Below are positions 11,351 to 44,766 of a DNA stretch of 44,957 nucleotides, in pieces; the first letter of the stretch is position 1, and each line of letters begins with the position of its first letter. Under the pieces are notes generated by a model. That model worked only from the letters and a program-made list of their open reading frames with translations, made no database searches and had not been told where the DNA came from. A program made the translations under genes and the position numbers. Origin of the DNA: a virus. The stretch spans positions 1-44,957 of IMG/VR virus record IMGVR_UViG_3300046791_000199; one strand, given 5' to 3'.

Positions 11351-11418
11351 GGGCTCGAAGGTTGAGCCCTACCCGTTGTGCTAGCTAGGAGAAAGGACGC
11401 TAGCTGTGGTGTCTCGCC
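11351..11418 (-). promoter_or_regulatory. Short intergenic region with duplicated GCTAGC palindromes
   Basis: Sixty-eight bases separate the early operon's last gene from the terminase operon. They hold GCTAGC at 11380-11385 and again at 11399-11404, 13 bases apart; each is itself a palindrome, so the pair forms both a direct and an inverted repeat around an AGGAGAAAGGAC spacer. No convincing -35/-10 pair was found. This could be an operator or attenuator at the early-to-late boundary. Confidence 0.35.
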
Positions 11419-11892
11419 CTATCCGGTTGCGGCGGTTTGACTTAGGCGTGCCTGGGGCTCGGGAGCGCCGTTTCTGGCATATCCATCGCCGAGGCGGACG
11501 AGCTGGCTTGTGACCTTGCCGGGCTTCGCGTTGCCGCGCTCCTTGAGGCTGCCCGCGTTGCGGAGCGCGCGGAGCTGGCGGTACATCGCCTGGAGGTGGG
11601 CGTTGCGCTCGCGCTTTCTGCCTTGGTCGTTCGCCTGCCAGGCCATCCGCATCGCCTGGGATGCGGACTCCCAGACCTCCGTGACCTCTTTTGGCTCGTC
11701 CGTTGGGATGAGGCGTCTCCAGGCTTCGGGCGAGTCGTGTTGGTTCATGGTTGGGAAGGGGGCCGGCCCGCCGGGCCTGGAGTCGATCTTTGCCTGGATG
11801 GACTCCTTTCTTGGTTGTGGCGGACCGGCCGGAAAGAGCCCACCCGGCTCAAGACGACGATGTGGAAGGAAGAGAGAGAGCCCTTGAGGCAT
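11419..11892 (-). CDS. Hypothetical basic protein, end of early operon
   Basis: 157 residues from ATG 11890-11892, which has GGAGAA about 9 bases upstream. The first 48 residues are Pro/Arg-rich and may be non-native; a second ATG at 11746-11748 (MNQHDSPEAWRRL) would give 109 residues but has no ribosome site. The rest is charged and helical (QANDQGRKRERNAHLQAMYRQ), ending in a Gln/Ala/Ser-rich tail. No domain was recognised. It is the last gene before the terminase cluster. Confidence 0.5.
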   Translation of the reverse strand: MPQGLSLFLPHRRLEPGGLFPAGPPQPRKESIQAKIDSRPGGPAPFPTMNQHDSPEAWRRLIPTDEPKEVTEVWESASQAMRMAWQANDQGRKRERNAHLQAMYRQLRALRNAGSLKERGNAKPGKVTSQLVRLGDGYARNGAPEPQARLSQTAATG

Positions 11893-11913
11893 CGCCGCTT
11901 TCTCCGGGTGGGT

Positions 11914-12048
11914 TTACAGAGCGCCTAGGGCCTCGTGGACGGGCCTCCAGAGCCGTATGAGGAGAAGGGCCAGGGCGGCGAGCAGCGCGAGCGTGGAGGC
12001 CCCTACGATCGCGTAGAAAGGCAGGCGGTCGGCGTGGTCGAGCTTCAT
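11914..12048 (-). CDS. Small single-pass membrane protein (44 aa)
   Basis: ATG 12046-12048 gives 44 residues with one clear membrane segment (FYAIVGASTLALLAALALLLI, about residues 11-31), flanked by a charged N-terminus (KLDHADR) and a C-terminal LWRPVHEALGAL. A longer in-frame reading to 12198 lies inside the neighbouring gene and is not needed. Likely in the inner membrane; the function is unknown, and a holin-like role is only a possibility. Confidence 0.55.
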   Translation of the reverse strand: MKLDHADRLPFYAIVGASTLALLAALALLLIRLWRPVHEALGAL

Positions 12049-12056
12049 GGGGTGGG

Positions 12057-12446
12057 CTACGCGTTGTTTAGGTCGGCGAGCGATTCCCACCCACACGACA
12101 CACGCCTTCCGGCCGCGCTGGCCTGATGCACGGTCAAGAATTGGATTGGCTTCGGCCCGCCTGCGACCGCTCGCTCGAATGTAGGCGCATAGACCCACGC
12201 CTCAGATCCGTCGTATTCGGAGCGGTGCATCGTGGCTCCATCCGAGAATGCAATCTCAAGATCGCTGGCAACTTCCTGTGCCCCGTAGCCCGCATCATAG
12301 CCTGTATCCGCGAGTCGCTCGAACTCAGCCCATGTGCATTCGTGGCCGGATCGCCGCGAACCGATGAAGATGATTTCTTCCGGCTTTCGGAAGTAGTTGG
12401 CGAGCGCCTCGCGGGTCTCGGCCAGTAAGTTCTGTTGCTCGCTCAT
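12057..12446 (-). CDS. Hypothetical early protein
   Basis: 129 residues, coupled to the upstream gene by an ATGA overlap at 12443-12446. It begins with a helix (MSEQQNLLAETREALANYF), followed by a mixed alpha/beta region with two DAGYGAQE-like turns and a Trp-containing DGSEAWVYAPTFERA. Two cysteines (near 37 and 118) are far apart. No known motif was recognised; it is most likely a small cytoplasmic early protein. Confidence 0.6.
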   Translation of the reverse strand: MSEQQNLLAETREALANYFRKPEEIIFIGSRRSGHECTWAEFERLADTGYDAGYGAQEVASDLEIAFSDGATMHRSEYDGSEAWVYAPTFERAVAGGPKPIQFLTVHQASAAGRRVSCGWESLADLNNA

Positions 12447-12757
12447 GGCTTCGTGATCTCCGCGAGCACGTTGCGGGCGCGCACGAACGGCTCGGATGGG
12501 ATGCGCCCCAGATTGTAGGCGTCGCGGCAGGCTTCGATGAGGTCCATGAGAGCCTCGCAGGCTTGGCGGAGGCGCGGGTCCGTTGTCGGGAGCATGTCCG
12601 GCTCCGCCAGCTCATCCTCCGCGTCCAGCGCCGTTCGGTACGCGCGCTTTGTGGCGGCGTCGATCCGGGCGTGGGCGGCTGCGGCATTCGCGTTGAGGCC
12701 GGCGCGCCTATCACGCCATCCGTCCATGTCGTTCGCCAGTTCGTCGAAGGGCTCCAT
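12443..12757 (-). CDS. Hypothetical helical early protein
   Basis: 104 residues from ATG 12755-12757, placed 2 bases after the stop of the 39-residue membrane protein. The protein is acidic and helical: AAAHARIDAATKRAYRTALDAEDELAEPD in the middle, then RQACEALMDLIEACRDAYNLGR. It has two cysteines and no membrane segment. An extended reading to 12988 overlaps the upstream genes and is rejected. Similar helical segments occur in neighbours at 16816 and 18580, suggesting loosely related helper proteins. The function is unknown. Confidence 0.55.
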   Translation of the reverse strand: MEPFDELANDMDGWRDRRAGLNANAAAAHARIDAATKRAYRTALDAEDELAEPDMLPTTDPRLRQACEALMDLIEACRDAYNLGRIPSEPFVRARNVLAEITKP

Positions 12758-24260: not shown

Positions 24261-24752
24261 CTACTTGATCCGCAAAGAGCGCCCTTGCTCTAGGTGCGCG
24301 CCGGGGACTTCGGTTCCGGCCTTGAGGGCGGTGGAGATCGCGGCCTTGTCGAGCGTCCGCGTTTCCTTCCAGAAGTCCTCGGGCAGTTTCTGCTCGTCGT
24401 CCACGACGACCTTCGGGGTTGAGTCCTGGACGCTCACGAAGAAGCGCGGCCCCTTGATCGTTCGGAGCCCCATTTCGTCCAGCTCGAACATTGCGTAGCG
24501 GCGCAGGCGCTCCCGGTTCGCCTCCGATGCCTTGCGGCGCTCGGCTAGGCGGACCTCTTCCAGGCGGAAAGCGTCCGCCTCAAGCTCCATCGTTCGGAGA
24601 ACGGCCGCGATGTTGTCCACCTTCGTGGTGATGTCGCCCTCAAGGGACTTCATCGTGTCGGCGAACGTGGCATCATCGACCTCGCCAGCGGCGAGCATTT
24701 CCTGGAGACGCTGATACTGGTCCCCCAAGGCATACAGGGCCAGCCCGCTCAT
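24261..24752 (-). CDS. Gp157-like siphovirus protein
   Basis: 163 residues, fitting the Gp157 pattern throughout: LYALGDQYQRLQEMLAAGEVDDATFADTMKSLEGDITTKVDNIAAVLRTME at the start, a coiled middle (EEVRLAERRKASEANRERLRRY), then the conserved KGPRFFVSVQDSTPKVVVDDEQKLPEDFW and DKAAISTALKAGTEVPGAHLEQ end. Gp157 proteins lie in recombination/replication cassettes of temperate and virulent siphoviruses. The exact biochemical role is not established. Coupled to the upstream annealing-protein gene by ATGA. Confidence 0.85.
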   Translation of the reverse strand: MSGLALYALGDQYQRLQEMLAAGEVDDATFADTMKSLEGDITTKVDNIAAVLRTMELEADAFRLEEVRLAERRKASEANRERLRRYAMFELDEMGLRTIKGPRFFVSVQDSTPKVVVDDEQKLPEDFWKETRTLDKAAISTALKAGTEVPGAHLEQGRSLRIK

Positions 24753-29854: not shown

Positions 29855-32800
29855 CTATTTCTTCCTATCTTCGTAGTGCGCCACGCGCATTCCCAGGAAG
29901 TTGAGCAGGTTGAGCGCAGCGCCCTCGCTGAATCCGTGCGCCTTGAAGATCGTCGATACGTCATTCCACGCCATCGGCGTAATGACGCGCGGCAGATAGG
30001 GCGGCTCGCCGCGCGGGCCAAGCTCTGAGGCTACGGAAGCGGGGCGTCCCGTTACGTCCTTCTTGTCCATGACGTTCGCCAGAGTGGCCCAGGCCGGGAG
30101 TAGCTTCCCACGCCCGTAGCGCACGACATCATCGAAGCTCATCTTGTGCGCCTTGTCGTTGACGCCCAGCGTCGCCTCGTCGCGGATCGACCTGCCGAGC
30201 TTCTCGTCCGCGACCTCCGCGATAGCCCCGGCTGCCGTAGTCGCAGCTCCGATGCCCATGCGCGCAGCCGATCCAATACCCCCAAGCGGATTGACTCGCG
30301 TATCCCCGAATCGGATGCTCGGTCCGCCTGGTTGTCGCGGATCAAGGTCCAGCTCACCACCCAACGCCTTGCCGGCCGCAAAGACGGTTGCGATTCCGAT
30401 AGCCGAACGGACGGCCTGCTGTGCCATGACTCGGCGCGTGGCTGGAGTCGTGCCTTTGCCGTAGAAGGGCGAGCCCGCGAGGATCTGCCATTGAGAGAGG
30501 TAGAGCCGAGGGGCCGTGACGAAATAGCCCGCCGCGTTCGATAGCTGCGCGTAGCGTCCCGGATCTCCCCGCCCCGTCATGATGCCCGCGTTCAGGGCGA
30601 GCTTCTTCTTCTCTGCACGACTGGGCTCGTAGGGCATCGCGTTCTCCCAGTTGTTGTACATCTCAACGCGGATCTGATTGAGGTACGAGGAGAACGCGCG
30701 ATCCGAACCCTTCACCACGGATCCGACCCCAGGAATGGCCTTGAGCCATCGGGTGCGGAACATCTCCTCCTGCGGTCCGAGCCCGTCGCCGGGAGACGAC
30801 AGCGGGACTCCAGCCTCAACAGCCTTCTTCCCTTCCGGGCTGTCGCGCAACGCGATGTCCTGCTCGCGCGCCGCCTTTTCCGAGAAAGCTGCGCGGGTCG
30901 CCCTGCTGAGCCACTTGGGCACCTTGGTCGCGTTCTTCGGATCGAGGGTCGCAAAGAGCCCCTGGGCGAGCGTCGCGCTTGCATCGGCCGAGAAGGTGAT
31001 AGCGCGCGAGGCTTCGGTTAGCTCCTTGATCCCGCCGCCGAACTTCTGGAGCGGTGTTCTCCGCGCGGCTTCCGCGTCGGCGATGTGCTTCTGAAGCTCC
31101 TGGCGAACCATTTGCTTCTCGGCCTCAAGGCGGATCATCGCCGGAGTCTTAGGGAGTTCCTGTCTCTCGGGGCGCGGGCCGAAGTCTCCCGTCTCGATCC
31201 TGCGGCGCATCTCGTCGATCGTTTTCTTGGAGCGCGACTCGGAGGCTTTCTGGCGCATCGCAACCCGCTCTGAGTCCGCCAGCGCCAGTTTGGCCTTCTC
31301 GAAGATGTCCTGGAGATGCGGCTTGATCGTCTCCCCGAACTCCCCGAGCATCTTGCCCGACCAATCAGCAAACGTCTTGATGTCGCGTGCGAGGTAGTCC
31401 GCGCCGATGATGATGTGATCCGCGAAGGTCTTGGGATCGAATGGGATTCCCCCGAATGCTTGCGGGCCGCGCGCCTTGATGCGGGCGCGAGCTGACTCGG
31501 CTTGCTTGCCGATGTACTCCAGGATCTTCGCCTGCGGCGCAACTGCGGCTTCCTGGCCGAAGCGGGGAAGCCCCTGCTCCATCGCCACGGTGCGGAGAGC
31601 GGGGGTGATGGGGAGGGAGTGGATGGCTGTCTGTCCAGACGAGGCCGGTCCAAGCATTTGCTCACCGGGCTGGTCTGGATTATCAATCCAGGCGCGACCG
31701 CTCTCTCCATGAATGCCGTCCGGGGCTGTATCAATCCTTGCCTCCCCCACTTCCGCCCCGCCGACCTTCCCAATCTTGTTCGCTGCGGCTGGGAGCATCT
31801 TGTCGTAGAAGCCCTGCATTCCCGCCCCGCCGATGGCGAGCCCTTCGCCCTCGAACGTCTGCGCCTCGGAGGGCTTCGAGCGGATCTTGTCCGCGATGTC
31901 CTTGCCTACGACATCCTCTAGGGCAACGTCGTGGCCGTGGATGTTGGCCTGCCCTGTGAGCGGAACCTCTGCGCCGAAACGTTCCTGTCCGCCTTTCCAT
32001 GCCTTGACGTAGACAGTCTGCGGGCCTTCCGGCGCGGGCACCGGCTCCCACTTGCGCCCGCCGTCCGGTAGATCGACGAGGCGCTGCCGCGTGGTGATAG
32101 CGGATCCAGGGCGCGGCTCCACCTCGATCTTGTCCACGTTCTGCCGCATCGCTTCGTTGTAGCGATCGACTTGCATCTCCCCCGTTGTCCACCCCACGGA
32201 GTCATACCCGTTCTCGGCTGCGTAGCGGATAGCGCGCTTGAGGGCCAGTTCGTGCCAGGTCTTCTTGAAGGGGGCGTCGGGGAGACCGGATCCCTGTCCA
32301 GCGGTCGCGGCAGAAACAACTTCGGCCTCTGTTCTGAACGGTCCAACGGCGCGACCCAGGCCGCTCCATCTGCCAATAAACCGCCCGTCATCCAGCTTCA
32401 CGATATCCAGATCAGCAGGCGGCTTGGTGCTCGCGTACCCAAACCCCTCCGGCACGCTATCGAGAACCGCCTGATACTCGGGCGACGGCTTCTCGCCCTT
32501 CTTCGGAGGCGCGATCCCCTTCTCTTTGAGTCGTCGCTTGATCTCGTCCCGGCGAGCCTCGCCGCCCTTCTGGTGCCAATCGCTCTGTACCTCCTCGATA
32601 AACAGCATCCGCTTGCCGTCTGCGGTCGTGCGGTCGTTTACTCGGAGGTGCGCAAGGACGTTGGGGGTGTCGGAGAAGTGACCGCCGGTGAAGTTGGGGC
32701 GTTCTCGGTTCAACTCCCCGTGTGCAAGATTCGCATACGCTTCGTGGACATCCGCGCTTGCTGTGTACGGATCAACTCCGCCCTTCCGCATTAGCTCTAG

Positions 32801-35800
32801 TCCGCGCTCGGCGAACTCCTGCCTCGTGTACGTCTTTTCCGGCAGCGTCAGCAGCAGCTCCCGGTAGTTGGAGCCGCCGGGGAGCTGGTATTGCTCGAAC
32901 TTGCCCTTTGACGAACGGATGCTGTCTTCGATCTCTTTGCGCTCTGCGAGCAGAGAATCGCCCAGGTCCGTGTTCGCCTTCATCCGCTTGATCCAGTCCG
33001 GCGGCTCGTCGAAGTGCTCGTAGCCCTTGCTGCGCTTCTCCTGCTGCAAGGCTAGGCGCTCCTCGCTGACGGCCTTCATTTCCTGATCGATGCCGCGCAG
33101 GCGAGCCACGGATCCTGTCGGCTGCGCCCCAAGCGCCTTCTCCTCCACCCTCACGTTGCTCTGCTTGAGGAAGTCCAGCACCTCGGACTTCTTCACAACG
33201 AGCTTGCCCTTGAGGAAGTCCCGCAGCCCGCTCCAATCCAGCTCCTCCGGGCTCACCCCCGCTTGATTCTCCAGCGTCTTGAGAACCTGATGCGACGGCG
33301 CTTTCTCGGGCAGCTTCGATTCGGCTGCGTCTTGAAGAAGCGAGCGCAGGCCCAATTCATCCGGGGCCGACTTCGACGCCTTATCCCCGAGGATCGCGTC
33401 CCGGTGGATCCCGCGAGCTTGCTTGAGAATGTCCTCGATGTGCGGGCGGATCGACTCGCCAAAGTCTTTTACGAGCTGCGCCGTCGCGTCGATGCCATGA
33501 GCGATGTGCGACGCGGCGATCCGCGCTACGTCCGCGATGTCCTGCGGGTCGAACGGGAGTCCACCGCCAGCGCGACCGCGCTTGGCCGCGAGCCTCGCTC
33601 TTGCCTCGTTTGCTTGAGCATCGAGGAAGGAGAGAACCCGCGCCTTGCGTTCCGGGTTAACCTTTGGATCGGCACGCTTCGCTTGTGTCTCCGCCTTCGC
33701 GTCCCGCTCCGCGATGAGAACGTCTACCTGCTTCTCAAGGTCCGAGAGCTTCTTGGAGATGCGGTCGGCGGTAGCCGTTTGCTCCGGGGTTAGCGGAGCG
33801 CCGCCGTTGGCGATGCGGAGACTCGTTTCGATCCCGGCCAGCGAGTAATCCTTATCCGCTAGCATCTTGAACGAGGAGAGCCCGCGTCCTCGGTCTGCGC
33901 TCTCGCGCACGCGCGCAGCCTCGACCGCCAATCGCTCGTCCGAGAGCGCCTTGGCGCGTTCCTCCAGCGCCTTGATCCCTTCCGTATCCGCGCGCTGGTA
34001 GGCCGTCGTCAGTTGTTCCTTGAGAGTGTCTCGCTCGTTCGAGAGCCGGACTTTCTCGCGCAGGATGACGGCGTTGCGCTCGTCCGAAGAGAGCCCCTGA
34101 ACCGCGTCACCCTTGATAACGCGCTCGGTTACGGTCGGGTCCGCCTCGACCTTGGCCTTGGAGTTCTCCCAGCTCACCCCGAAGGCCTTGGACGCCTCGC
34201 GCTCAATCGGGCCGTAGCCGTGCTGCGCGTGCTCTGCTTCGACGGCGGCTCGCTTGATGCCGATGGGCGTCTCCGGAGGCCGCGCCTCCTGCCACACCGG
34301 AGAGGGAGTCGGGGCAGGAGGGGCCTTGGAAGTGTTCGGGATCTCCGAAGGGTTGGGGGCGGGAGTCACGGACTGCTTTGTCTCTACCAGAGGTTCCCAG
34401 CCTTGATCCGTGAGGATTTCGATGCTTGAGGCCGGCACCTTCTTGTATGTGTAAATGTCTCCCGTTGACTCACGGCGGAATGCGGCGGAACGCTTGGAGC
34501 GCAATACGACGGGCTTGCCCTCTGTAGGCGCAAACTGCCAGACGTTGTTGGCCCGCTCGCTCCAATACGACCGCTTGCGCGTCTCGCCATCAGGCCACGC
34601 ATTCTGTTCAGTTCCGAAATCTGGCGGGAACGTGTCGAGACTGCCCGACTCGGCTATGTCTCCAGCCCGCTCTTGATTCGTGGCGTGGTAAACGTATCCG
34701 GGCTCCGTTTTCGTCTCTCCCGACGGGGCGACCGCGCGAGCGTGCGGTGGTTCGGCGGGCGCTGTGACCTTGGGCTCGGGAACGGCCTCCTGTACGGGCG
34801 CAGGTTCGACGCGGGCGGGCTCGGACGGCATCGGAGCCGCTTCGGGCGCGGGCGCAGCCTGGGGCGTTCTAGCGAGTTTAGGCGGTTTGGCTGGGTTTAC
34901 CGGCTCGCCAGCCGGCTTGGCCTTCCCCGGCTTCGCGGCTGCGATGTCGCCGATGTCCTGGGGCGTCAGAAACTCCTTGAGGTTGTCCTGGAGCTGCTCG
35001 CGGATGTCGAGCTTGCGGCGCTCGCTGGCCGTCTCGTACTCGCCGGCAAGGGCCTTGAAGTCCTTGTTCCGGGCGGCCTCGATCAGCGAGGGGCGGACTT
35101 CCCGTGGCGGCTCGGGCCGGCGCGGCTCGGCGACCGTGGCGAGCTGGATTCGGTTCTCCGGGGTCGGCTCGGCCGCGTACTTCTTGGCGGCTTCGACGAT
35201 GGCGGCGTGTTCCTCGGGAGTGGGCTCGGCGGGACGGGCTGCCGCTCGGATGGACGGGCCGGCCTCGCTCGCCAGCATCTCGCCAGGGAGTGCCGCCGCT
35301 TCCGAGGGCATGGCCGCCGGCCGCTCCCCGATCGGCGTGGACGGTCCCGGCTCCGTTCCGGCGAGGGCGCGCTGCGTCTGATCCGCGAGCGATCCGGAAG
35401 GCTCCGGCGCGGCCGTTCCAGGGGAGGGCGGTGACGCCCCCCCGGGGCCACCGCCATCCGGCCGCGCCTCGGCCTTTGCTTCGACCTTCGCGGGCTCTCC
35501 GGGTTTGGCCCCAGCCACGGCCCCCATGAAGGCGAACAGCGGCCCGTAAACGGCTGCGTCCTTCCCGGCGAGCTTGAGCCCACGGGATAGGGCTTCTCGG
35601 AGGTCCGCCCGGTCCCCCTCGACAACGTGGTCGTGGACCACTTCCCCGAGGATGGTGGCGCTACCGATCCCGCCGATGCCCACGAGCCCGCCCTTGACCG
35701 CCTCCTCGATGATGGACCCAACCGGCCCGCCCGCGAGCTTGCCGAACACCCGCCCGAACGGGAGAGCCATAGCAACGCCCCCAGGAACGTTCAAGAGCGC

Positions 35801-36406
35801 GGCTTGGGCAGCCTTGGCCGAATCCCCTGTTTCCGCCAGGACGCGATCGTAGGCCCCCTGGACGTGCTGGCCGCCGATCGCAGCGGCGATCGCCGGAGTC
35901 GCGGCCCCGCCCGTAGCCAGTTCAGCCGCCGCGTAGGGTACGAGCCCGCCCGCCGCCCCGGCGAACCGCTCCGGGTAGGTCTTGGCCTCCGGGCCTTGCG
36001 CCTCGCCGAACCGCCGGACGGCCGTTCCAGCGCCCTGGAGCGCGCCCATCGTGGACCGGCGAACATCCGCCAGCGGGTCGTTCGGAGCGCCCGCGATGGC
36101 CGCCCCCTGCTTCCCGGCGAACTCCATGAGCGAGCCCGTGGAGGTGGCCGCGTCCCGGGCGAAGACTTGGGCCAGACGCGCCGTCAGCCTCGGCGCGATG
36201 GCCCCAGCGAGCCCCCCGCCCATCATCGCCGCCGCCGCGCGCTCCTCTATGCTTCCGGCTGGCAGCACGGAGGTCTTGCGGGCATGGGGCTTCGGCGGTT
36301 CGCCCGTGTCGATCATGTCGAGAAGCGTCTGCTGCTCCGATGGCCGGAGCGGAGCCGCCTCCGTGTCGATCATGTCGAGCAGGGATTGTTGGGGATCTTG
36401 GACCAT
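29855..36406 (-). CDS. Giant polyvalent internal virion protein (2,183 aa)
   Basis: Start ATG 36404-36406, 4 bases after the previous stop. N-terminus: a duplicated QQ(S/T)LLDMIDT unit (residues 6-15 and 25-34), then Ala/Gly-rich helical, membrane-like region to about 310. An ART-like fold candidate lies near 569-680 (GYVYHATNQERAGDIAESG). Two similar segments of about 50-55 residues at about 946-996 and 1651-1706 (FDP(Q/K)xxADxxx..FGE(S/T)I(R/K)PHxxDI). A domain at about 1165-1560 includes NVLAHLRVNDRT and IEEVQSDWHQ. The C-terminus from 1786 resembles LPD38, common in phage internal proteins. It probably is ejected with DNA; enzymatic roles are inferred. Confidence 0.85.
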   Translation of the reverse strand: MVQDPQQSLLDMIDTEAAPLRPSEQQTLLDMIDTGEPPKPHARKTSVLPAGSIEERAAAAMMGGGLAGAIAPRLTARLAQVFARDAATSTGSLMEFAGKQGAAIAGAPNDPLADVRRSTMGALQGAGTAVRRFGEAQGPEAKTYPERFAGAAGGLVPYAAAELATGGAATPAIAAAIGGQHVQGAYDRVLAETGDSAKAAQAALLNVPGGVAMALPFGRVFGKLAGGPVGSIIEEAVKGGLVGIGGIGSATILGEVVHDHVVEGDRADLREALSRGLKLAGKDAAVYGPLFAFMGAVAGAKPGEPAKVEAKAEARPDGGGPGGASPPSPGTAAPEPSGSLADQTQRALAGTEPGPSTPIGERPAAMPSEAAALPGEMLASEAGPSIRAAARPAEPTPEEHAAIVEAAKKYAAEPTPENRIQLATVAEPRRPEPPREVRPSLIEAARNKDFKALAGEYETASERRKLDIREQLQDNLKEFLTPQDIGDIAAAKPGKAKPAGEPVNPAKPPKLARTPQAAPAPEAAPMPSEPARVEPAPVQEAVPEPKVTAPAEPPHARAVAPSGETKTEPGYVYHATNQERAGDIAESGSLDTFPPDFGTEQNAWPDGETRKRSYWSERANNVWQFAPTEGKPVVLRSKRSAAFRRESTGDIYTYKKVPASSIEILTDQGWEPLVETKQSVTPAPNPSEIPNTSKAPPAPTPSPVWQEARPPETPIGIKRAAVEAEHAQHGYGPIEREASKAFGVSWENSKAKVEADPTVTERVIKGDAVQGLSSDERNAVILREKVRLSNERDTLKEQLTTAYQRADTEGIKALEERAKALSDERLAVEAARVRESADRGRGLSSFKMLADKDYSLAGIETSLRIANGGAPLTPEQTATADRISKKLSDLEKQVDVLIAERDAKAETQAKRADPKVNPERKARVLSFLDAQANEARARLAAKRGRAGGGLPFDPQDIADVARIAASHIAHGIDATAQLVKDFGESIRPHIEDILKQARGIHRDAILGDKASKSAPDELGLRSLLQDAAESKLPEKAPSHQVLKTLENQAGVSPEELDWSGLRDFLKGKLVVKKSEVLDFLKQSNVRVEEKALGAQPTGSVARLRGIDQEMKAVSEERLALQQEKRSKGYEHFDEPPDWIKRMKANTDLGDSLLAERKEIEDSIRSSKGKFEQYQLPGGSNYRELLLTLPEKTYTRQEFAERGLELMRKGGVDPYTASADVHEAYANLAHGELNRERPNFTGGHFSDTPNVLAHLRVNDRTTADGKRMLFIEEVQSDWHQKGGEARRDEIKRRLKEKGIAPPKKGEKPSPEYQAVLDSVPEGFGYASTKPPADLDIVKLDDGRFIGRWSGLGRAVGPFRTEAEVVSAATAGQGSGLPDAPFKKTWHELALKRAIRYAAENGYDSVGWTTGEMQVDRYNEAMRQNVDKIEVEPRPGSAITTRQRLVDLPDGGRKWEPVPAPEGPQTVYVKAWKGGQERFGAEVPLTGQANIHGHDVALEDVVGKDIADKIRSKPSEAQTFEGEGLAIGGAGMQGFYDKMLPAAANKIGKVGGAEVGEARIDTAPDGIHGESGRAWIDNPDQPGEQMLGPASSGQTAIHSLPITPALRTVAMEQGLPRFGQEAAVAPQAKILEYIGKQAESARARIKARGPQAFGGIPFDPKTFADHIIIGADYLARDIKTFADWSGKMLGEFGETIKPHLQDIFEKAKLALADSERVAMRQKASESRSKKTIDEMRRRIETGDFGPRPERQELPKTPAMIRLEAEKQMVRQELQKHIADAEAARRTPLQKFGGGIKELTEASRAITFSADASATLAQGLFATLDPKNATKVPKWLSRATRAAFSEKAAREQDIALRDSPEGKKAVEAGVPLSSPGDGLGPQEEMFRTRWLKAIPGVGSVVKGSDRAFSSYLNQIRVEMYNNWENAMPYEPSRAEKKKLALNAGIMTGRGDPGRYAQLSNAAGYFVTAPRLYLSQWQILAGSPFYGKGTTPATRRVMAQQAVRSAIGIATVFAAGKALGGELDLDPRQPGGPSIRFGDTRVNPLGGIGSAARMGIGAATTAAGAIAEVADEKLGRSIRDEATLGVNDKAHKMSFDDVVRYGRGKLLPAWATLANVMDKKDVTGRPASVASELGPRGEPPYLPRVITPMAWNDVSTIFKAHGFSEGAALNLLNFLGMRVAHYEDRKK

Positions 36407-36410
36407 CGCC

Positions 36411-37748
36411 CTATTGCTTGAGCTTGGCCCCAAGCTCGGCAGCACGCTTCTTCAACTGCTCGGGCGTCGTGATCTTCTTCGCCTTCACCTCTGCGGCGAG
36501 CTGATCTTCCGGCGTCGGGCCGCCCGCGCCGTTCTTCGTGCCCATCAGCTCATCCGCCCGCGCCTTGATGTCGCCCGGCTTCGCTTCGTCGCCAAGTTCC
36601 GTCTTTGCAATCTGCGTTGCCCGCGAGCGATCAAGGATCGCGTTGGGGCCGCCCGACTGGCCGCGAGGGAGCTGGAGCTTTCCTTCCGCCCGCGCGTCCG
36701 AGAGTCCCGCCGCCGCGTCGCGTTGCCGTCCAAGCGAGCCCGTCGCGCGTTGCTGCTCTTGAATCAAGCTGATCTGCGCGAGCGTCTTTTGCAGCGCAAC
36801 CGCCGATTCCGGCGTCATCTCCAGCATGTCGCCGCCACCGAAGCTGAACGGGTTGGGCACCTGCACCGTGCCCCGCAGGATCCGCTCGACCTCCGCATCC
36901 ACCTTGTTCGGCGGGATCATCCCCTCTTCGAATCCGACGTTCGCTCCGAGTGATCCAATCCGCGCCTTCTGATCCGTCGTCAGCCGATTCCCAGCCTCCG
37001 CCGCGCGCGTCTCGATCGTGTGGCGAGCCGCCGCAACCGCCGCGTTCTTCGTGTTCCTCTCTGTGATGTCCCTGCGGATCGCCATCCGCGTTTTGTTCGC
37101 GTAGTCGAGGACTTTTACCTTGTCCTCGGCACTCACATCCGGCCCCTGCGCCGTCTGAAGCGCTTGAAGCACGCCCTTCATCGCCTCCTGATAGGTCGGG
37201 TCAGCTTCCGTGCTATTCGGATCCGTGACGGTGTAGGTCCCCGGCGTGGTCAATCCCTCGCCGATGTCCTTCGTCATCTTCGTGATGCCGCGATCGGCCA
37301 CGAGCCTGTGAAGGTTCGCCTGTTCTTCGTCGAGGAACCGCTTGGCGTACTCCATCCCCTTCGCGGGGTCCGCCTTGGCGATCTCCGCCGCCATCTTGCC
37401 AGCGCGCTCCGTGTTGGCGCGGATTGAAGCCTGGAACTGTGCATCCTCGCTGTTGGGATCGGACGGGCCGACCATTCCGGAGTCGGGCTGATTGGGCTGC
37501 GCGGGTCGATCGAACATCCCGCCGATCATCCCCGGCACGGTCGCGCGCTGCTGCTGGAGCACGCCGTATTCCGACGCTCGCCGCTTCTCTTCCGCAGCGT
37601 TCAGATCCATGTCCTGCTCGACCTTCTGGCGGAGCGTCTCGTAACGATCCTTCTCTCGCTGCTGGTCGCGCGCCTTGAAGATGATCGCGGCCATGTCGTT
37701 GCCAAAATTGTCGAAGTTGGCCCCGCCGTGGCTGATGACGATGCCCAT
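36411..37748 (-). CDS. Internal virion protein, gp15-like position
   Basis: 445 residues from ATG 37746-37748, with GGAG about 8 bases upstream; a TTG start five codons upstream (37763) is less likely. Sequence is charged helix with many Glu, Lys, Ala, Gln: KARDQQREKDRYETLRQKVEQDMDL, then a Pro/Gln-rich piece (RPAQPNQPDSGMVGPSD), KAGKMAAEIAK, QTAQGPDVSAEDKV. Such helix-rich proteins line the portal or form a DNA-ejection channel. It lies between two other internal protein genes in T7-like order (gp14-, gp15-, gp16-like). Confidence 0.6.
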   Translation of the reverse strand: MGIVISHGGANFDNFGNDMAAIIFKARDQQREKDRYETLRQKVEQDMDLNAAEEKRRASEYGVLQQQRATVPGMIGGMFDRPAQPNQPDSGMVGPSDPNSEDAQFQASIRANTERAGKMAAEIAKADPAKGMEYAKRFLDEEQANLHRLVADRGITKMTKDIGEGLTTPGTYTVTDPNSTEADPTYQEAMKGVLQALQTAQGPDVSAEDKVKVLDYANKTRMAIRRDITERNTKNAAVAAARHTIETRAAEAGNRLTTDQKARIGSLGANVGFEEGMIPPNKVDAEVERILRGTVQVPNPFSFGGGDMLEMTPESAVALQKTLAQISLIQEQQRATGSLGRQRDAAAGLSDARAEGKLQLPRGQSGGPNAILDRSRATQIAKTELGDEAKPGDIKARADELMGTKNGAGGPTPEDQLAAEVKAKKITTPEQLKKRAAELGAKLKQ

Positions 37749-38725: not shown

Positions 38726-39000
38726 GGCTCCTGCTCCATCAATCCCCTCGCCTTGAGGTTGGCGATAATCTCGTTCACCTTGACCACGAGCTTCTCCAGC
38801 TCGACCTGTATGCCCAGCGGAACCGCCGTGTAGTCGAGCGCGAGGTTATCGACGCCGCGCGCCGTTCGCCGATTCGTGGCGAGGAGATTCTGCTGGCGCC
38901 GCAGCCTCGGATCCATGAGCCCAGGGCGGCGCATGAGCGTTGAGGAGAGGCGGGCGCGGCCTACGGGGCCGGCCTTGCGCTTGGGGTCAATGGATGCCAT
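38722..39000 (-). CDS. Small virion-associated protein
   Basis: 92 residues from ATG 38998-39000, overlapping the hub gene by 14 bases (stop at 38987); the longer reading to 39213 runs in the hub gene and is not used. Basic N-terminus (MASIDPKRKAGPVGRARLSSTLMRRPG), then RLRRQQNLLATNRRTARGVDNLALD and a helical VELEKLVVKVNEIIANLKARG end. The basic part may bind DNA or the portal. No family was recognised; located between hub and internal proteins. Confidence 0.6.
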   Translation of the reverse strand: MASIDPKRKAGPVGRARLSSTLMRRPGLMDPRLRRQQNLLATNRRTARGVDNLALDYTAVPLGIQVELEKLVVKVNEIIANLKARGLMEQEP

Positions 39001-41878
39001 GTGCCCTGCCCGCCGGGAACGCATCGACCGTGATGCTTTCGACCGCCCAGCGTTCGGATAGAGCGGGCACGCCGCTGCTCGTCCGCGTCGCCGACCGAAG
39101 CTGCATCCAGCAGTACGGACCTCGGCATTGAATCGGGAGCCTGAGATTCCGTCCCGGCCCGACGCGCACCTGATCCTTCGGCATCTCCGGCGTCTCGGCC
39201 GTCTCTGAGGCAAAGAACTTCACATGCACGCCGCCAAGCTCGCGCGCAAGAATCACGCTCGGCCGCTTGAAGCGCGCCTCGAAGTCGCCTTCCGGTCCGG
39301 CGATCGGCCCAATGAGCACCCGCGCGTCGATCGGCTGCGAGTCGTCGCCGGATGACAGCGGATCCCACTTCAGCACGCGCCCATCCTCCGTTCCGAAGAT
39401 CATCACGCGCTCGGCCGCCGTGTCCCCATCGATGACGTGAACGGCCGTGGGCTGCATCTCCGTGATTGCCGTCGTTCCGAACTCCATCGGGAACCATCCG
39501 CCCGTGCGCTGACTCCAGAAGTAGTGCCGAACCTGCACTCCGCCATCCTCGTAAGGAAGGATCCAGACATGGAGCCCGTTATCCCTTGAATTCCAGGTCA
39601 TTTCGACGCGGTACGTCGAGAGGTCAACGTCCGAAATCTCCTCCTCGATCGTGTCTCGCGTGAGCCATTGAAGCTCGCCGGTCGGGCTCATGACGTAGAC
39701 GCCGCCGCTCGAACCGAAGAAGTAGATCCGCCCCTCGGGGTCCTTGCACCACGGCGAGCCGAAGGCCATGCCGATCTTGTCGGACACGACGGAGATCCGA
39801 CCGCCGGCCATCGGGTCGCCATCGACGCGCAGGATCGAACGCGAGCATCCGATGAAGAGGAGATCATCCGACCATGGAACGAGCGCGTGAATCAGATCGG
39901 GAGAGTCCCCGGCGGCCGGGAGCGCCTGTCCGCTGACCGCCTGCGTTTCGAGCGGTTCGGGCGGGAATAGATCCCAGTCGTAGGGGTCGTTGTAGGCGCT
40001 CATGTGCCACGACCACGGCGAGTCTGCCGTGTGGGCGAGCACGATTCGATTCCGCCAGCGGCAGATCAGGCGAGCGCGCGGTGGGATCAGGCCGAGGCTC
40101 GTCGCGCGCCACTCGACGATCTCGCCGTCCGGGTTCGTCGCGTCTCCAGGAAGCGGCCGATACACCGCGTAGTCCTGCCCGTCCGTCCAGAACACTTCTC
40201 CGTCGAAGTCGGCTGCCTGGACGAAACGCGAGTTAGTGCTGAGGACCGGAGAGCGCCCCGTGCTGTTCGTCGGGTTCGTGACTCCGGCCGTCGTGAACCT
40301 GTAGATGGCCCCGTTGGCAACGCCCAGCCGACAGATCGCCCGCGAGGATGTTTGAAGCGCGGTCTCCAGGAGCGTGTCGTAGCCCTGGATCGAGCCGCCC
40401 GTGGTCTCTGAAGTGAGCGTGACGACGTTCGTTCCCGAGATGAACACCGTGTCCGTGACCGGGTAATCGTCGGGCTGGTAGTCGGGGTGCGTCGTCGGAA
40501 CCGCGACGGCTCGCGTCTCGTTTGCCGTGACCGTGGGCACGCCAGCGACGTAGACGTACTGAACGATCGACGAGTAGAGCACGCCGCTCGGCTTGATAAT
40601 CTTCGCTGCCGCTACGCTCGTCGAGCTGACGCAGGTAGGCACGACGAGATTGCTTGAGTAGTCAAGGGCGATCGACGGGTAGCTGTAACCCGGATTCGTA
40701 GCCGCCGCTCCGAGGTCCGTCGCGTTCGCTCGCTCCCAGACCTTGAGCCACGCCGTCGTCGTGTCCGAGAGCATCCTGACCCACGAACCGGAAGAGGGAT
40801 CGCCCGTCGCGCGCCGGCCCATGGAGTAGACGTTGCCAGTTACATCGACCGCGACGGCGAAACCGACTCCACCGCCGCGAACGGCCGACACGGCGACCTC
40901 GTTGTTCACGAAGCAGTAATTGGCCGAAAGGGTGAAGTCGCTCTTGATCTTGAGCTGCGCCCAGACTCCAGAGGAGGCATCATGGACCGTTCCAACCGCG
41001 ATGATCCAGGACGTTTCACCGACCGTCCGCATCGCCATGTCGTGGCCGAATACGGCAGTACCGCCAGCGGGGAACAGCGCATCGAGCGCCGTGATCGCGG
41101 CGTTGTCGATCGTCAGGTGGTCGTATCGGTCCCCCGTTCCAGGCCCGGACGCCGTGTTGATGTTCTTGTATTCAACCAGGCGCGCCGAGCAAACCGTGGT
41201 TGAGACGTACTGCGTTTCTAGCGTCCACAGCGAATCACCGGCAACGTGCATCCCCTGAACGAGGCTCGGCGATGAGTTTGTGAAGACGTGCCAGACTATC
41301 TCCAAGCCCCTGTTGTCGGCGGCCAGTTGAAACTTGTAGATATGGCCCGGGCCAACTCCGGAAAGGGTTGAAATCCAGTCGGAAGCGGCGACGTAAATCG
41401 CGCCGTCTTCCGCGACGTGAATCTTGCCGACGACGAACAGCGGACCGCTTGCCCCAATGGGGAGGCCTGGAATGTCGATGGCTCCAAGCTCAATCCCGTA
41501 GCGCGAGTAGTGAACAAGCCTCGTCTTGTCTATGACTGCGAAGAAGTCGTCATACAGGCCCGACTCGATGACTGAGACCGTCGAGGCTTGCGCCAGCGAC
41601 ACCGCCCATAGCTCATTCGGAATCGGATCGGCCGAGTAGCTGACGTGCCTCGCTTGGTACGGGAACGAGTGGAGCGCCTGGACCTTGTGGCCGATCCCGG
41701 CCATGTAGCCGGAGAAGTAGGCCGAGGAGCCCGAGCGGATCGAGCCGCGCAGCCGGCCCGTGGTCCAGTCAACCGGCACGACGTTGACGAGATCCCGGCT
41801 CGTCTGCGGCGGCTGCTCCGATAGGCGGCCGTTTTTGTTCAAGCCCTGGAAAGGGAATGAGAGGGGAAGGCGGCTCAC
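38987..41878 (-). CDS. Tail hub / tail tubular B-like protein (963 aa)
   Basis: From GTG 41876-41878, overlapping the TGA of the preceding gene (GTGA); the longer reading to 42046 includes out-of-frame upstream sequence. The N-terminus SRLPLSFPFQGLNKNGRLSEQPPQTSRDLVNVVPVDWTTGRLRG contains the common 'sxxNxxPxdwxxGrlR' start of podophage tail-hub proteins (P22 gp10, T7 gp12-like). The rest is rich in beta-strands and GG/NG turns in a propeller pattern. The C-terminal half holds DPYDWDLFPPEPLETQAVSG and YFFGSSGGVYVMSPTG. It would join the connector to fibres and the needle. The precise orthology is an inference. Confidence 0.65.
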   Translation of the reverse strand: MSRLPLSFPFQGLNKNGRLSEQPPQTSRDLVNVVPVDWTTGRLRGSIRSGSSAYFSGYMAGIGHKVQALHSFPYQARHVSYSADPIPNELWAVSLAQASTVSVIESGLYDDFFAVIDKTRLVHYSRYGIELGAIDIPGLPIGASGPLFVVGKIHVAEDGAIYVAASDWISTLSGVGPGHIYKFQLAADNRGLEIVWHVFTNSSPSLVQGMHVAGDSLWTLETQYVSTTVCSARLVEYKNINTASGPGTGDRYDHLTIDNAAITALDALFPAGGTAVFGHDMAMRTVGETSWIIAVGTVHDASSGVWAQLKIKSDFTLSANYCFVNNEVAVSAVRGGGVGFAVAVDVTGNVYSMGRRATGDPSSGSWVRMLSDTTTAWLKVWERANATDLGAAATNPGYSYPSIALDYSSNLVVPTCVSSTSVAAAKIIKPSGVLYSSIVQYVYVAGVPTVTANETRAVAVPTTHPDYQPDDYPVTDTVFISGTNVVTLTSETTGGSIQGYDTLLETALQTSSRAICRLGVANGAIYRFTTAGVTNPTNSTGRSPVLSTNSRFVQAADFDGEVFWTDGQDYAVYRPLPGDATNPDGEIVEWRATSLGLIPPRARLICRWRNRIVLAHTADSPWSWHMSAYNDPYDWDLFPPEPLETQAVSGQALPAAGDSPDLIHALVPWSDDLLFIGCSRSILRVDGDPMAGGRISVVSDKIGMAFGSPWCKDPEGRIYFFGSSGGVYVMSPTGELQWLTRDTIEEEISDVDLSTYRVEMTWNSRDNGLHVWILPYEDGGVQVRHYFWSQRTGGWFPMEFGTTAITEMQPTAVHVIDGDTAAERVMIFGTEDGRVLKWDPLSSGDDSQPIDARVLIGPIAGPEGDFEARFKRPSVILARELGGVHVKFFASETAETPEMPKDQVRVGPGRNLRLPIQCRGPYCWMQLRSATRTSSGVPALSERWAVESITVDAFPAGRAHGIH

Positions 41879-42420
41879 GCGCTGATCGCCTCCGGTCGCT
41901 TCGGCCAAATCAGAATGTGAAACGCCCATCGCGCGGCGAGGCTCCAGCGCTTTGCCAGGAGCGCCTTGATGAGCTGTGGGAAGTTGTGGAGATTCCGCGT
42001 CACGAGCCCAGCGAGAAGGATCCTGACGGCCCAGGTGCGCGTCCATGACGTGGACTGCTCAAGAAGCTGGAGCGAGCGTTCCTTCACTTGAAGCTCGCCC
42101 TGGGAGAGCATGAGAAGCGCCTTGAGGTGCTCGTTCTCTTTGTCGCCCGCACCTTCGCCTTGAAGCGTTCCCTCTCGCAGTTCGGCGTTCTCGCCCACGG
42201 AGTGCCCGACGACGGCCCCAACCCCAGCGCCCACGACGGTGCCCGCTGGACCGACCACAGAGCCCGCCAGCGCACCGGCCGCAGCGCCACCGGCTGGCAT
42301 GGCGGACGCCCTGACGCTGCTCCACAGTCCAGCGCAGGACGCCAGCCATACGGCCGCAGCCGCAGCTATGAGCGCGGCCACGGACCAGTTCATCACCTTG
42401 AGGGCGCGGTCGGGGGTCAT
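41875..42420 (-). CDS. Membrane protein with glycine-zipper
   Basis: 181 residues from ATG 42418-42420 (ATGA overlap); the 273-residue reading to 42696 includes sequence antisense to neighbours and is rejected. A first membrane segment (NWSVAALIAAAAAVWLASCAG, 11-31) is followed by a Gly-rich zipper AMPAGGAAAGALAGSVVGPAGTVVGAGVGAVVG (about 40-72), then soluble helices ending HNFPQLIKALLAKRWSLAARWAFHIL, a possible second segment. Gly zippers often mediate membrane helix packing; a role in exit or ejection is possible. Its stop is coupled to the hub gene. Confidence 0.6.
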   Translation of the reverse strand: MTPDRALKVMNWSVAALIAAAAAVWLASCAGLWSSVRASAMPAGGAAAGALAGSVVGPAGTVVGAGVGAVVGHSVGENAELREGTLQGEGAGDKENEHLKALLMLSQGELQVKERSLQLLEQSTSWTRTWAVRILLAGLVTRNLHNFPQLIKALLAKRWSLAARWAFHILIWPKRPEAISA

Positions 42421-42530
42421 CGCCAACGCCCAATCTGATGTCTGTGATGAAGGCACAGCGCCATCCACCACAGCCAGAGAGCCGTGAGGCCGAGGCCAAC
42501 AGCCGCGCCGATCTTGTCGCCGTGGGTCAC
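42417..42530 (-). CDS. 37-residue membrane protein with GTG start
   Basis: GTG 42528-42530 overlaps the previous TGA, and its own TGA (42417-42419) overlaps the next ATG. Reads VTHGDKIGAAVGLGLTALWLWWMALCLHHRHQIGRWR, one hydrophobic segment (IGAAVGLGLTALWLWWMALCL) and a basic end. Too short for most gene callers. The perfect spacing argues for a real gene; likely an inner-membrane peptide of unknown role, perhaps part of a lysis module. Confidence 0.5.
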   Translation of the reverse strand: MTHGDKIGAAVGLGLTALWLWWMALCLHHRHQIGRWR

Positions 42531-42898
42531 TTGGGTTTCGCCTCGCCAGGAATCTCCGGCTTCGGAGCGGGAATAGGCGGCAGCGGAGGCGGCGCGCTGT
42601 CCATGATGTTGCGATAGTGCTGCTCTGCACGCACCCGCTCACGGATCCGCTCCTCGGCCGCCCACCGACGCGCGGCGAACGGCTCGATCTCGACATAGAC
42701 GGCCTGGGAGTCGGTGTCGTTATTCACCTTCCCGCCGCGAGCGTCATAGCTGCCGTCGCCGTAGACCCAACCGACGCGGGTGGTCAGCGCGGACACCTGC
42801 CACTCCTCGGCGGTCGTGCAGCTCGCAAAGAAGCACATCACCACGATGGCGAGGCCGATCGCAAGCCACACGAACCGATCGTACTTGCTCGACCTCAT
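42527..42898 (-). CDS. Putative lipoprotein
   Basis: 123 residues from ATG 42896-42898; upstream extension to 43030 lies over the next gene and is rejected. N-terminus MRSSKYDRFVWLAIGLAIVVMCFFASC with a lipobox-like FFASC at about 23-27, then TTAEEWQVSALTTRVGWVYGDGSYDARGG, and a charged helix EERIRERVRAEQHY. The last 20 residues are Pro-rich (PPPLPPIPAPKPE), as in outer-membrane spanins that span the periplasm. A spanin-like role is a possible inference; lipidation is predicted. Confidence 0.55.
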   Translation of the reverse strand: MRSSKYDRFVWLAIGLAIVVMCFFASCTTAEEWQVSALTTRVGWVYGDGSYDARGGKVNNDTDSQAVYVEIEPFAARRWAAEERIRERVRAEQHYRNIMDSAPPPLPPIPAPKPEIPGEAKPK

Positions 42899-42900
42899 GG

Positions 42901-43053
42901 CTACTTGCCTCCGGGGATCAGCCCGTCGATCACATCGAGCAAGCCCTTCGCGGCATGGATGAGCGGGTGACCGATTGCGATGACGATAAGCGCCGTGATG
43001 ATGCAACCGGCGGCCCACTTCCAATTCCAAGTCGTAGGATTCAGGACAGTCAT
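42901..43053 (-). CDS. 50-residue membrane protein
   Basis: ATG 43051-43053, preceded by AAAGGAAGTG. Reads MTVLNPTTWNWKWAAGC then IITALIVIAIGHPLIHAAKGL and DVIDGLIPGGK. One membrane segment and a short Gly-rich end. Located between the protease and lipoprotein genes. The small size and position suggest part of a lysis or membrane module, such as a holin, though this is not shown. Confidence 0.55.
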   Translation of the reverse strand: MTVLNPTTWNWKWAAGCIITALIVIAIGHPLIHAAKGLLDVIDGLIPGGK

Positions 43054-43070: not shown

Positions 43071-43916
43071 TTAGGGTTGGGCGGCGAGCACCGCCGCTTC
43101 CGCGTTCACCACGAGACCGGCTCCCATCGGAGTCGCCGTGGAGATCAGGATGTCTTGGACTTCCTCGCCCGTGAGCGAGGGGTTGACGGCGAGGACGAGG
43201 CCCGCGACGCCGAGGACATATGCGCCGGCTTGGCTCGTCCCGTCACCGGCTCCGAACGTGTCGGGCGGTGCGGTCGAGGTCGCGTGACCCGGAGCCCAAA
43301 GATCGACTGGGTTCCCGAAGTTTGAGTAACTCGCCTGGGAACCGTCCAGCCCGCAAGCACCGACCACGAGTATATGAGGGTCGTTACGACCACCGAGGTT
43401 TTGACCTCCGGCCCAGACGTTTCCGGCGGGGACAATCGCCAGCCGGTGCCCGTCGTTCCACAGCGCATCGAGCGCACTCTTGAGCGGTTGTTGGCGGGCA
43501 ATGGGGAGGATCTCTCTTTCGATCAGGACGACCTTCGCGGTAGTGGTTGTGCGCGCCCGGTCGATCGACGCTGCGATGCTCCCGCGCGTGTACCCGGCGC
43601 TGAACACGGTGAGATCGGACTGCCAGAGAATCCCAGCGATGCCAATTCCGTTGTTGGCGTCGGCGGTGATCGTGCCCGACATGAGCGTTCCGTGCTGATC
43701 GCAGTTGTCCCACGGATCGCTCGCCGGGTTCAGGTGCGTCAGGTCCGGGTGATCGAGCTGCACGCCGGAGTCGATGTCCACGAGCGGGACGGACGCGCTA
43801 CCCGTGGTGATCTCCCAGGCCGCAGGCACCCCGATCAGTTGGAGCCCGAACTGCGCGGGGAAGATCGGATCGTTGGGAGCCTGGACGCACAGAGCAAGAG
43901 CGATGGCGGTCAGCAT
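43071..43916 (-). CDS. Subtilisin-like secreted serine protease
   Basis: 281 residues from ATG 43914-43916, with AGGAA upstream. After a short hydrophobic N-terminus (MLTAIALALCVQA, likely a signal peptide though lacking positive residues), the S8 fold follows: VDIDSG with D49, DQHGTLMSGT with H75, IVPAGN with oxyanion N166, ASYSNFG and WAPG near 195-210, and GDGTSQAGAYVLGVAGL with S228. All four key residues are present. There is no propeptide: the mature-type start NDPIFPAQFGL follows directly. S8 enzymes cleave proteins outside the cytoplasm; in a phage this could attack host surface proteins, or assist release or entry. Confidence 0.9.
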   Translation of the reverse strand: MLTAIALALCVQAPNDPIFPAQFGLQLIGVPAAWEITTGSASVPLVDIDSGVQLDHPDLTHLNPASDPWDNCDQHGTLMSGTITADANNGIGIAGILWQSDLTVFSAGYTRGSIAASIDRARTTTTAKVVLIEREILPIARQQPLKSALDALWNDGHRLAIVPAGNVWAGGQNLGGRNDPHILVVGACGLDGSQASYSNFGNPVDLWAPGHATSTAPPDTFGAGDGTSQAGAYVLGVAGLVLAVNPSLTGEEVQDILISTATPMGAGLVVNAEAAVLAAQP

Positions 43917-43918
43917 GG

Positions 43919-44194
43919 TTATTCCTGGTCGATGGGGTGAAGTTGAAGCTCCTCGGCCACGACTCCAGCGTGCCGGATGAGCAGTTCCTTGTCGGTTTCT
44001 CCCAGGTTGCGAGTCGTGGTGACGGTGCGGACGATCCCCCCGGACTTCCAGGAGGTGGTGAGGCTGTTGCCGGCGACGGTGATGGACATGGTTTCAGCGA
44101 TCCTTTCGAGCACGCGGTACTGACTGAACTGGATGGCGACGATCCCGACGACGAGGACCGTAATTAGGACCCGCCAAGCTGCCGCGACCTTCAC
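43919..44194 (-). CDS. Membrane-anchored small protein
   Basis: 91 residues from GTG 44192-44194, two bases before the protease gene. An N-terminal membrane segment (VAAAWRVLITVLVVGIVAIQF, 2-22), then a soluble part with VLERIAETMSITVAGNSLTTSWKSGGIVRTVTTTRNLGETDKELLIRHAG. Could be a partner of the protease (for example an anchored inhibitor or chaperone), since a co-located small protein is adjacent to a propeptide-less protease. That is an inference from context. Confidence 0.6.
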   Translation of the reverse strand: MKVAAAWRVLITVLVVGIVAIQFSQYRVLERIAETMSITVAGNSLTTSWKSGGIVRTVTTTRNLGETDKELLIRHAGVVAEELQLHPIDQE

Positions 44195-44227: not shown

Positions 44228-44521
44228 TCATTTTCCTGCACTTCTCGTGAGCGCATCTACGGAGGTCTTGATCTTGTCCAGGTCGCGCCCCTGCGCCTCG
44301 ACCGTGAATGTGAGCGCCTGGATCTGGAGAGCTACCGCGCGCGATTGCTCCGCCAGCTTCTCGTTCGTGGCGTAGCTGGAGAGCGTGATCTGCTTTTCCA
44401 GGTCGCCGTACTTCGTAGCTCCGAACCATGCGAGGCTGGCAAAGGCGACGGAGAACCCCCACGGCACGAGAGTCTCGCGCGTCAGGATCGGCCGTCGCCC
44501 GTTGCCGTTCTCGTCAGCCAT
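44228..44521 (-). CDS. Small membrane protein with coiled coil (holin-like?)
   Basis: 97 residues. A hydrophilic start (ADENGNGRRPILTRE), one membrane segment (TLVPWGFSVAFASLAWFGATK, about 16-36), and a helical amphipathic tail with EKQITLSSYATNEKLAEQSRAVALQIQALTFTVEAQGRDLDKIKTSVDAL, the layout of several phage holin-associated or membrane-tethered proteins. The ATG at 44519-44521 overlaps the previous TGA by one base. Its function is not proved. Confidence 0.6.
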   Translation of the reverse strand: MADENGNGRRPILTRETLVPWGFSVAFASLAWFGATKYGDLEKQITLSSYATNEKLAEQSRAVALQIQALTFTVEAQGRDLDKIKTSVDALTRSAGK

Positions 44522-44766
44522 CAGGGAGTTTGAATCGCAGCGACAGCAGCCGCGTTCGCATTCTCGGCCGCGACGGCGGTATCGAGATTGGCCGAGACGG
44601 TCGTGGTGATCGCGGCCACTCGGCCGGCGAGGTCTTGGATTGCGGCTGCGGTAGCCGCCTGTGAGGCTGCGAGGTCCTGGAAGGTAGCCATGAGAATGAG
44701 TCCTATCGTGACGATGGAAATGAGGATGAAGATGAGGAGGAGAACGATGAGGTTGATAGGGTCCAT
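44521..44766 (-). CDS. Small membrane protein with Ala-rich helix
   Basis: 81 residues from ATG 44764-44766, overlapping the fibre stop by one base. It starts MDPINLIVLLLIFILISIVTIGLILMATFQ, one strong membrane segment (5-28), then an Ala/Thr-rich helix (AASQAATAAAIQDLAGRVAAITTTVSANLDTAVAAENANAA), heptad-like coiled coil. First gene after the fibre C-terminus. Possibly a fibre-linked chaperone or lysis component; unknown. Confidence 0.6.
   Translation of the reverse strand: MDPINLIVLLLIFILISIVTIGLILMATFQDLAASQAATAAAIQDLAGRVAAITTTVSANLDTAVAAENANAAAVAAIQTP

Follow-up and report, generated by a model that had tools for sequence, protein, structure and literature searches.

What can a subtilisin without a propeptide do in a phage genome in which no endolysin is recognisable? 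This question is raised by IMG/VR virus record IMGVR_UViG_3300046791_000199, analysed here over its whole length of 44,957 nucleotides (hereafter, the window), where a gene for an S8 subtilase-fold protein lies in a cluster of genes for small membrane proteins and lipoproteins. The open reading frame (ORF) at positions 43071-43916 on the minus strand, encoding 281 aa, is a real gene: it has an ATG start, an AGGA-like site upstream and no alternative start further upstream, and its GC content by codon position (0.67/0.51/0.78) is like that of neighbouring genes. The product matches most of the Pfam domain Peptidase_S8 (PF00082; E=8.2e-23, 81.6 bits against a cut-off of 21.8) and the PHROG protease family phrog_3677 (E=2e-26). 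Its AlphaFold2 model (pLDDT 87.8, pTM 0.90), which was computed from an alignment of S8 proteins and is thus not independent of the sequence match, superposes by residues 12-281 on mature deseasin MCP-01 (Z 39.0, rmsd 1.6, 264 aligned residues) and by residues 12-278 on mature thermitase from residue 1 of the latter (Z 37.8, rmsd 1.5, 255 aligned residues). The positions of the catalytic quartet are occupied by Asp49, His75, Asn166 and Ser228. Since residue 12 corresponds to mature residue 1, only 11 residues precede the catalytic domain, leaving no room for the I9 propeptide, which in classical secreted subtilisins is located between the signal peptide and the mature domain. On both points, the complete set of S8 catalytic residues and the missing propeptide, the earlier note on this DNA was right. 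A propeptide supplied in trans by the 91-aa protein encoded directly upstream was considered and set aside, its position being the one argument for it.

In whole fold, catalytic quartet and start of the mature chain, the window protein is like the thermitase/deseasin-type secreted subtilases of PF00082. It differs from them not only in the absence of a propeptide, but also in the loss of two conserved residues (BPN' numbering). Ser125 of the substrate strand, present in 118 of the 121 compared domains, is replaced by E135, and Pro225, which follows the catalytic Ser in 112 of 121, is replaced by A232. Among 93 S8 domains the window protein is the most divergent: 16 of 43 conserved columns are changed, more than in any other sequence, and in the tree it forms the longest branch (2.33, compared with a median of 0.24), its position there not being firm. 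Judging by sequence, the window copy may retain proteolysis. Because the quartet is present without the usual substrate strand, it may be an active protease whose specificity has changed, or it may be in the course of becoming inactive.

The probable export signal is the hydrophobic leader MLTAIALALCVQA (43878-43916, minus strand), which is followed by PNDP. It is atypical, in that it has no basic residue, its core is short and a Pro comes after the obvious cleavage site. What had been described as a likely signal peptide is therefore better called plausible but atypical; its hydrophobic character stands. Export is nevertheless made plausible by leaders of like kind at the same place in the orthologues described below, namely MLLSMLLALAIQAPNDP in L318 and ...LVLLALAAFALTAGSARAQAPNDP in L353. 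The S8 ORF of L353 is continuous with an N-terminal transmembrane (TM) segment, unless an internal GTG is the translation start. Unlike viral S8 proteins related to intracellular subtilisins (ISPs), the window protein has no LIPY-type motif at its N-terminus and thus does not belong with the ISPs. It shares a small phage-encoded S8 domain with these proteins and with those of Bacillus phages (the Goe3 group and vB_BcoS-136), but their N-termini are LIPY/LLPY-like or otherwise non-hydrophobic, identity to them is about 28-30%, and their genomic context is different.

The S8 gene is surrounded by genes for five small single-TM proteins (37-97 aa), as the earlier note had it, and two lipobox proteins, where it had counted one, all on the minus strand. 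Upstream are a 91-aa single-TM protein (43919-44194), whose stop codon lies 2 bp before the S8 start and which by eye resembles short proteins encoded upstream of the L318 S8 gene; a 97-aa TM and coiled-coil protein (44228-44521) with a weak TM score and a weak likeness to a protein of the related virus G053 (phmmer E=7e-3, profile E=0.28); and an 81-aa protein with one N-terminal TM segment (44521-44766). Downstream are a 50-aa single-TM protein (42901-43053), a 123-aa lipoprotein with the lipobox FASC and a Pro-rich C-terminus (42527-42898), a 37-aa single-TM protein (42417-42530) and a 181-aa glycine-zipper lipoprotein with the lipobox LASC (41875-42420; PF13488). A strong hydrophobic segment is found in six of the seven small ORFs of the cluster, compared with two of 34 elsewhere (Fisher p=4e-5), and this is the only membrane-protein cluster in the genome. 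It is located between a tail-fibre gene and the gene for a tail nozzle-like protein (38987-41878, minus strand), which is conserved in relatives and named from its position and sequence pattern. By position, the former is probably the 3' end of a fibre or spike gene that remains open at the contig end (44766-44957, minus strand). It is possibly one and the same gene as the ORF open at the other contig end (3-1841, minus strand; 613 aa), which appears to encode a tail-fibre-like protein, given a match to the virion structural family phrog_692 (E=1e-4) and its similarity to a fibre-like ORF of G053. Phage lysis genes are often found near tail-fibre or other tail genes.

By its matches for terminase, portal, capsid and adaptor, the window belongs to a podovirus-like lineage in which the gene order terminase-portal-capsid-adaptor-nozzle is conserved. 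The gene for the conserved SU10_adaptor-like protein (2209-3162, minus strand; PF24175, E=2e-5, just under its cut-off) is close to the nozzle gene in the relatives examined, whereas in the window the two lie at opposite contig ends. The genome is therefore probably nearly complete and permuted, with the fibre/membrane/protease block between adaptor and nozzle, which agrees with the earlier suspicion that the stretch may be a full genome. Bacterial genome assemblies contain eight relatives of the terminase, of which five come from assemblies named as planctomycete or Phycisphaerae, and one assigned to Candidatus Brocadiia, which we take to be planctomycete, would be the sixth. Two of the eight also have portal, capsid, adaptor and nozzle genes in this order, and both are Planctomycetota. 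These assemblies being metagenome bins, a planctomycete is the likely, rather than the established, host. In 392 Planctomycetota genomes, the capsid profile matched a single genome, in two copies, and a profile of the S8 orthologues matched none. The closest cellular sequences are full-length chromosomal S8 proteins of planctomycetes, with 30-39% identity in the part that matches; their open frames are longer, and the proteins compared keep His, Asn and Ser. An apparent phage match, MT837317 (L008), was rejected, as its neighbours look like SusC/SusD and it was read as a Bacteroides-type bacterial fragment.

Scanning viral contigs with single sequences, those of the protease, the terminase and the nozzle protein, gave no match, and the orthologues of the window S8 protein were reached by profile searches. 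A profile combining the window protein, the S8 protein of phage contig L234 and planctomycete S8 proteins retrieved L318, and a second profile retrieved L353 and L354. The three are 48-49% identical to the window protein, and L318 (48%) has the same N-terminus. The family thus comprises four members found, two of which (L353 and L354) are nearly identical. All four lack the I9 propeptide and both Ser125 and Pro225. The quartet is intact in the window protein, but in the three orthologues Asp alone is kept: His, the oxyanion Asn and Ser are replaced by F, E and K, respectively, in L318, and by L, T and A in L353 and L354. Substituted catalytic residues make these three S8 pseudoproteases, which the window protein is not. 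In the set of 121 S8 domains used for comparison with the window protein, His is intact in 117, Asn in 118 and Ser in 118; the exceptions are L318, L353 and L354 for all three residues and, for His only, L234. The model of L318, likewise built from an S8 alignment, keeps the full fold (pLDDT 88.1, Z 38.0 to deseasin MCP-01). Between L318 and L353, which are 70% identical, dN is 0.24 and dS 0.80, and the resulting dN/dS of about 0.3 indicates that the inactive form is under purifying selection; the ratio for L353 and L354, with four differences, is uninformative. Since conservation has persisted in orthologues with a dead catalytic site, proteolysis is not the conserved activity of the family, nor does the family depend on it.

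The S8 gene appears to move between phages, since the phages encoding it have three different portal families, phrog_156 (weak match) in the window, DUF4055 in L318 and PF04860 in L353, the three orthologue contigs accounting for two of these families. Parts of the neighbourhood recur with it. The glycine-zipper lipoprotein is common to the window and L318 (51% identity over 102 aa, E=1e-21). L318 and L353 share a spike-like protein encoded directly after the S8 gene and an OMP-like protein (names given by eye, Pfam having no match). A protein with a TM segment and a coiled coil, ending in VPEVR, is present in L353 and in the window relatives G053 and G064, the 97-aa protein of the window being at most weakly similar to it. 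The S8 protein of phage contig L234 (G394) is also reminiscent of this arrangement: it is 36% identical to the window protein, has an APNDP start, and is encoded downstream of tail genes and beside small TM proteins and a lipoprotein. It differs, however, in having a propeptide-like N-terminal region and a His to Tyr replacement, and its phage encodes a long tape-measure-like protein. At this locus (L234 5728-6912, at a contig end) HGT has become YGT (GYGTAVAG).

Apparent export, lipoprotein and spike neighbours, and conservation after loss of the active site are best explained by a protein that binds the host envelope. We therefore tentatively favour, without granting it even odds, a propeptide-less exported S8-fold protein of host origin, carried in a shared late envelope/spike cassette and having binding as its conserved role. 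The gene would probably have been captured from secreted S8 proteases of a planctomycete-type host and would reside in a late cassette of small membrane proteins, lipoproteins and a tail fibre or spike, which recurs in unrelated phages. Made late, the protein would cross the inner membrane by means of its hydrophobic leader and, in the periplasm or at the outer membrane, bind an envelope protein or peptide, so that exit is helped or re-adsorption blocked. Speaking against this reading, Asp, His, Asn and Ser are all retained in the window copy, although a protein without activity would have no need of them, the leader is atypical, and the four family members include two that are nearly identical. 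A broader formulation, to be held a little more guardedly still, is that of a mobile envelope cassette in unrelated phages, at least one of which probably infects planctomycetes, where the exported subtilisin fold has been repurposed for non-proteolytic binding and the window protein is a transitional, still-intact member of a series leading from protease to pseudoprotease.

An active secreted exit protease, as envisaged by the earlier note, is the alternative that fares best, though we consider it unlikely. Released late, it would degrade S-layer, wall or outer-membrane proteins to let the progeny escape, the membranes and peptidoglycan being breached by an enzyme not yet recognised or by the small membrane proteins. 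The intact quartet and full fold are as such a protease would have them, its gene is surrounded by those for membrane proteins and lipoproteins, close to tail genes, in the only cluster of this kind, and the reported absence of a canonical endolysin was borne out by profile searches. No muralytic Pfam family was matched at E<=0.01 in the 70 ORFs of the window, a search that a divergent enzyme may escape. Two PHROG matches were rejected: that of phrog_7348 ('endolysin') covers about 50 aa of a 2196-aa protein read as polyvalent-type, and that of phrog_1047 ('tail associated lysin') is a glycine-zipper match. As possible holin- and spanin-like proteins there are the small TM proteins and the lipoproteins, and the family matches in Pfam and PHROG are only weak. 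The cluster is similar to holin-endolysin-spanin cassettes in its position near tail genes, its small TM proteins and its lipoproteins, but differs from them in having no recognisable endolysin and no confident holin or spanin match, and in encoding instead an S8 fold with putative export.

Several observations argue against an exit protease. Its orthologues are dead yet conserved, and the window copy has lost the substrate-strand Ser125 and Pro225. Moreover, no S8 gene was found in about 96 related virus records (50, then 46), and relatives without it imply that the S8 protein is not the general endolysin replacement of the lineage. The absence of a recognisable endolysin may extend to these relatives: Pfam scans of four near-complete ones gave no muralytic family, a weak negative given that some wrong-strand ORFs were picked in these GC-rich genomes, and the matches of a six-frame Amidase_2 search were confined to G026 and G045, which are more distant records, and to two bacterial genomes. 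Finally, planctomycetes possess lysozyme-sensitive peptidoglycan sacculi (PMC4432640), so that a protease alone is not expected to free the progeny, and a wall made of protein only is a poor premise for the likely hosts. For a phage lineage with probable planctomycete hosts and no recognisable endolysin, the mechanism of exit becomes a testable question.

The earlier note also raised action on the surface at entry and the processing of virion proteins as options. A role in adsorption or in the virion, where the protein would assist the tail fibre or spike and either bind the cell surface or act on it at entry, seems to us quite unlikely. Fibre or spike genes adjoin the S8 gene in the window, L318 and L353, and BFVD matches show S8 domains in certain tail and baseplate proteins of cyanophages, but a virion protein would not be expected to carry a hydrophobic export leader, and the window gene has those for five membrane proteins and two lipoproteins around it. 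Superinfection exclusion is improbable. Here an exported surface protein, acting together with the lipoproteins and, in the case of L318 and L353, the OMP-like protein, would mask or alter the receptor after infection: this would account for the clustering of exported proteins and lipoproteins with receptor-binding genes, yet from a late position it would act late. That a recently captured host protease is decaying neutrally without any function in the phage, as its sparse distribution and the host-type secreted S8 proteins closest to it might suggest, is very improbable, because in unrelated phages that have neighbouring genes in common the inactive forms remain open and are conserved (dN/dS of about 0.3).

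The binding reading has a precedent in the S8 pseudoproteases CspA and CspC of Clostridioides difficile, in which the subtilase fold is kept for a non-catalytic role (PMC6636752). In CspC, Asp is retained, while Thr replaces His and Gly replaces Ser (PMC6636752); L318 and L353 likewise keep Asp and lose His and Ser. CspC functions in spores and carries both a prodomain and a jelly-roll domain, whereas the phage proteins are compact, have no prodomain and belong to a phage envelope cassette, and in the window copy the quartet is intact. S8 pseudoproteases are thus already known; in the literature searched, no description came up of a phage S8 pseudoprotease or of a lysis cassette containing a phage subtilisin. 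A phage family with the quartet intact in one member and lost in the others, all without a propeptide, would provide a natural series for studying how subtilisin folds without a prodomain and what a non-cutting fold binds.

Several minor observations accompany these results. Two further phage S8 proteins, encoded in an unrelated context in L267 (5989-7014) and L287 (4905-6083), have a typical signal peptide but lack a propeptide; they group together in the tree. In the alignment, about 24 viral S8 proteins (many of L319-L351) have Glu in the column of the catalytic Asp, which may reflect a local misalignment or a real variant. In the window, the 2196-aa protein (29855-36445, minus strand) has weak PHROG matches (phrog_3147 and phrog_7348) and no Pfam match; the matching region in relatives encodes giant proteins of 1655-3478 aa, with LPD38 in at least two relatives, and we read the window protein as an injected polyvalent-type protein. 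Another ORF of the window matches the GroES co-chaperonin (Cpn10, E=2e-12; phrog_3188), and that at 24261-24752 (minus strand) encodes a Mu Gam-like end-protection protein (phrog_253, E=4e-48). The planctomycete MAG G098 contains, on contigs C283 and C38, two different relatives of the capsid gene of the window phage. In L353, a large ORF upstream of the portal gene (9029-12631), read as the terminase by position and sequence, contains an intein and a LAGLIDADG domain (PF14890, PF14528).
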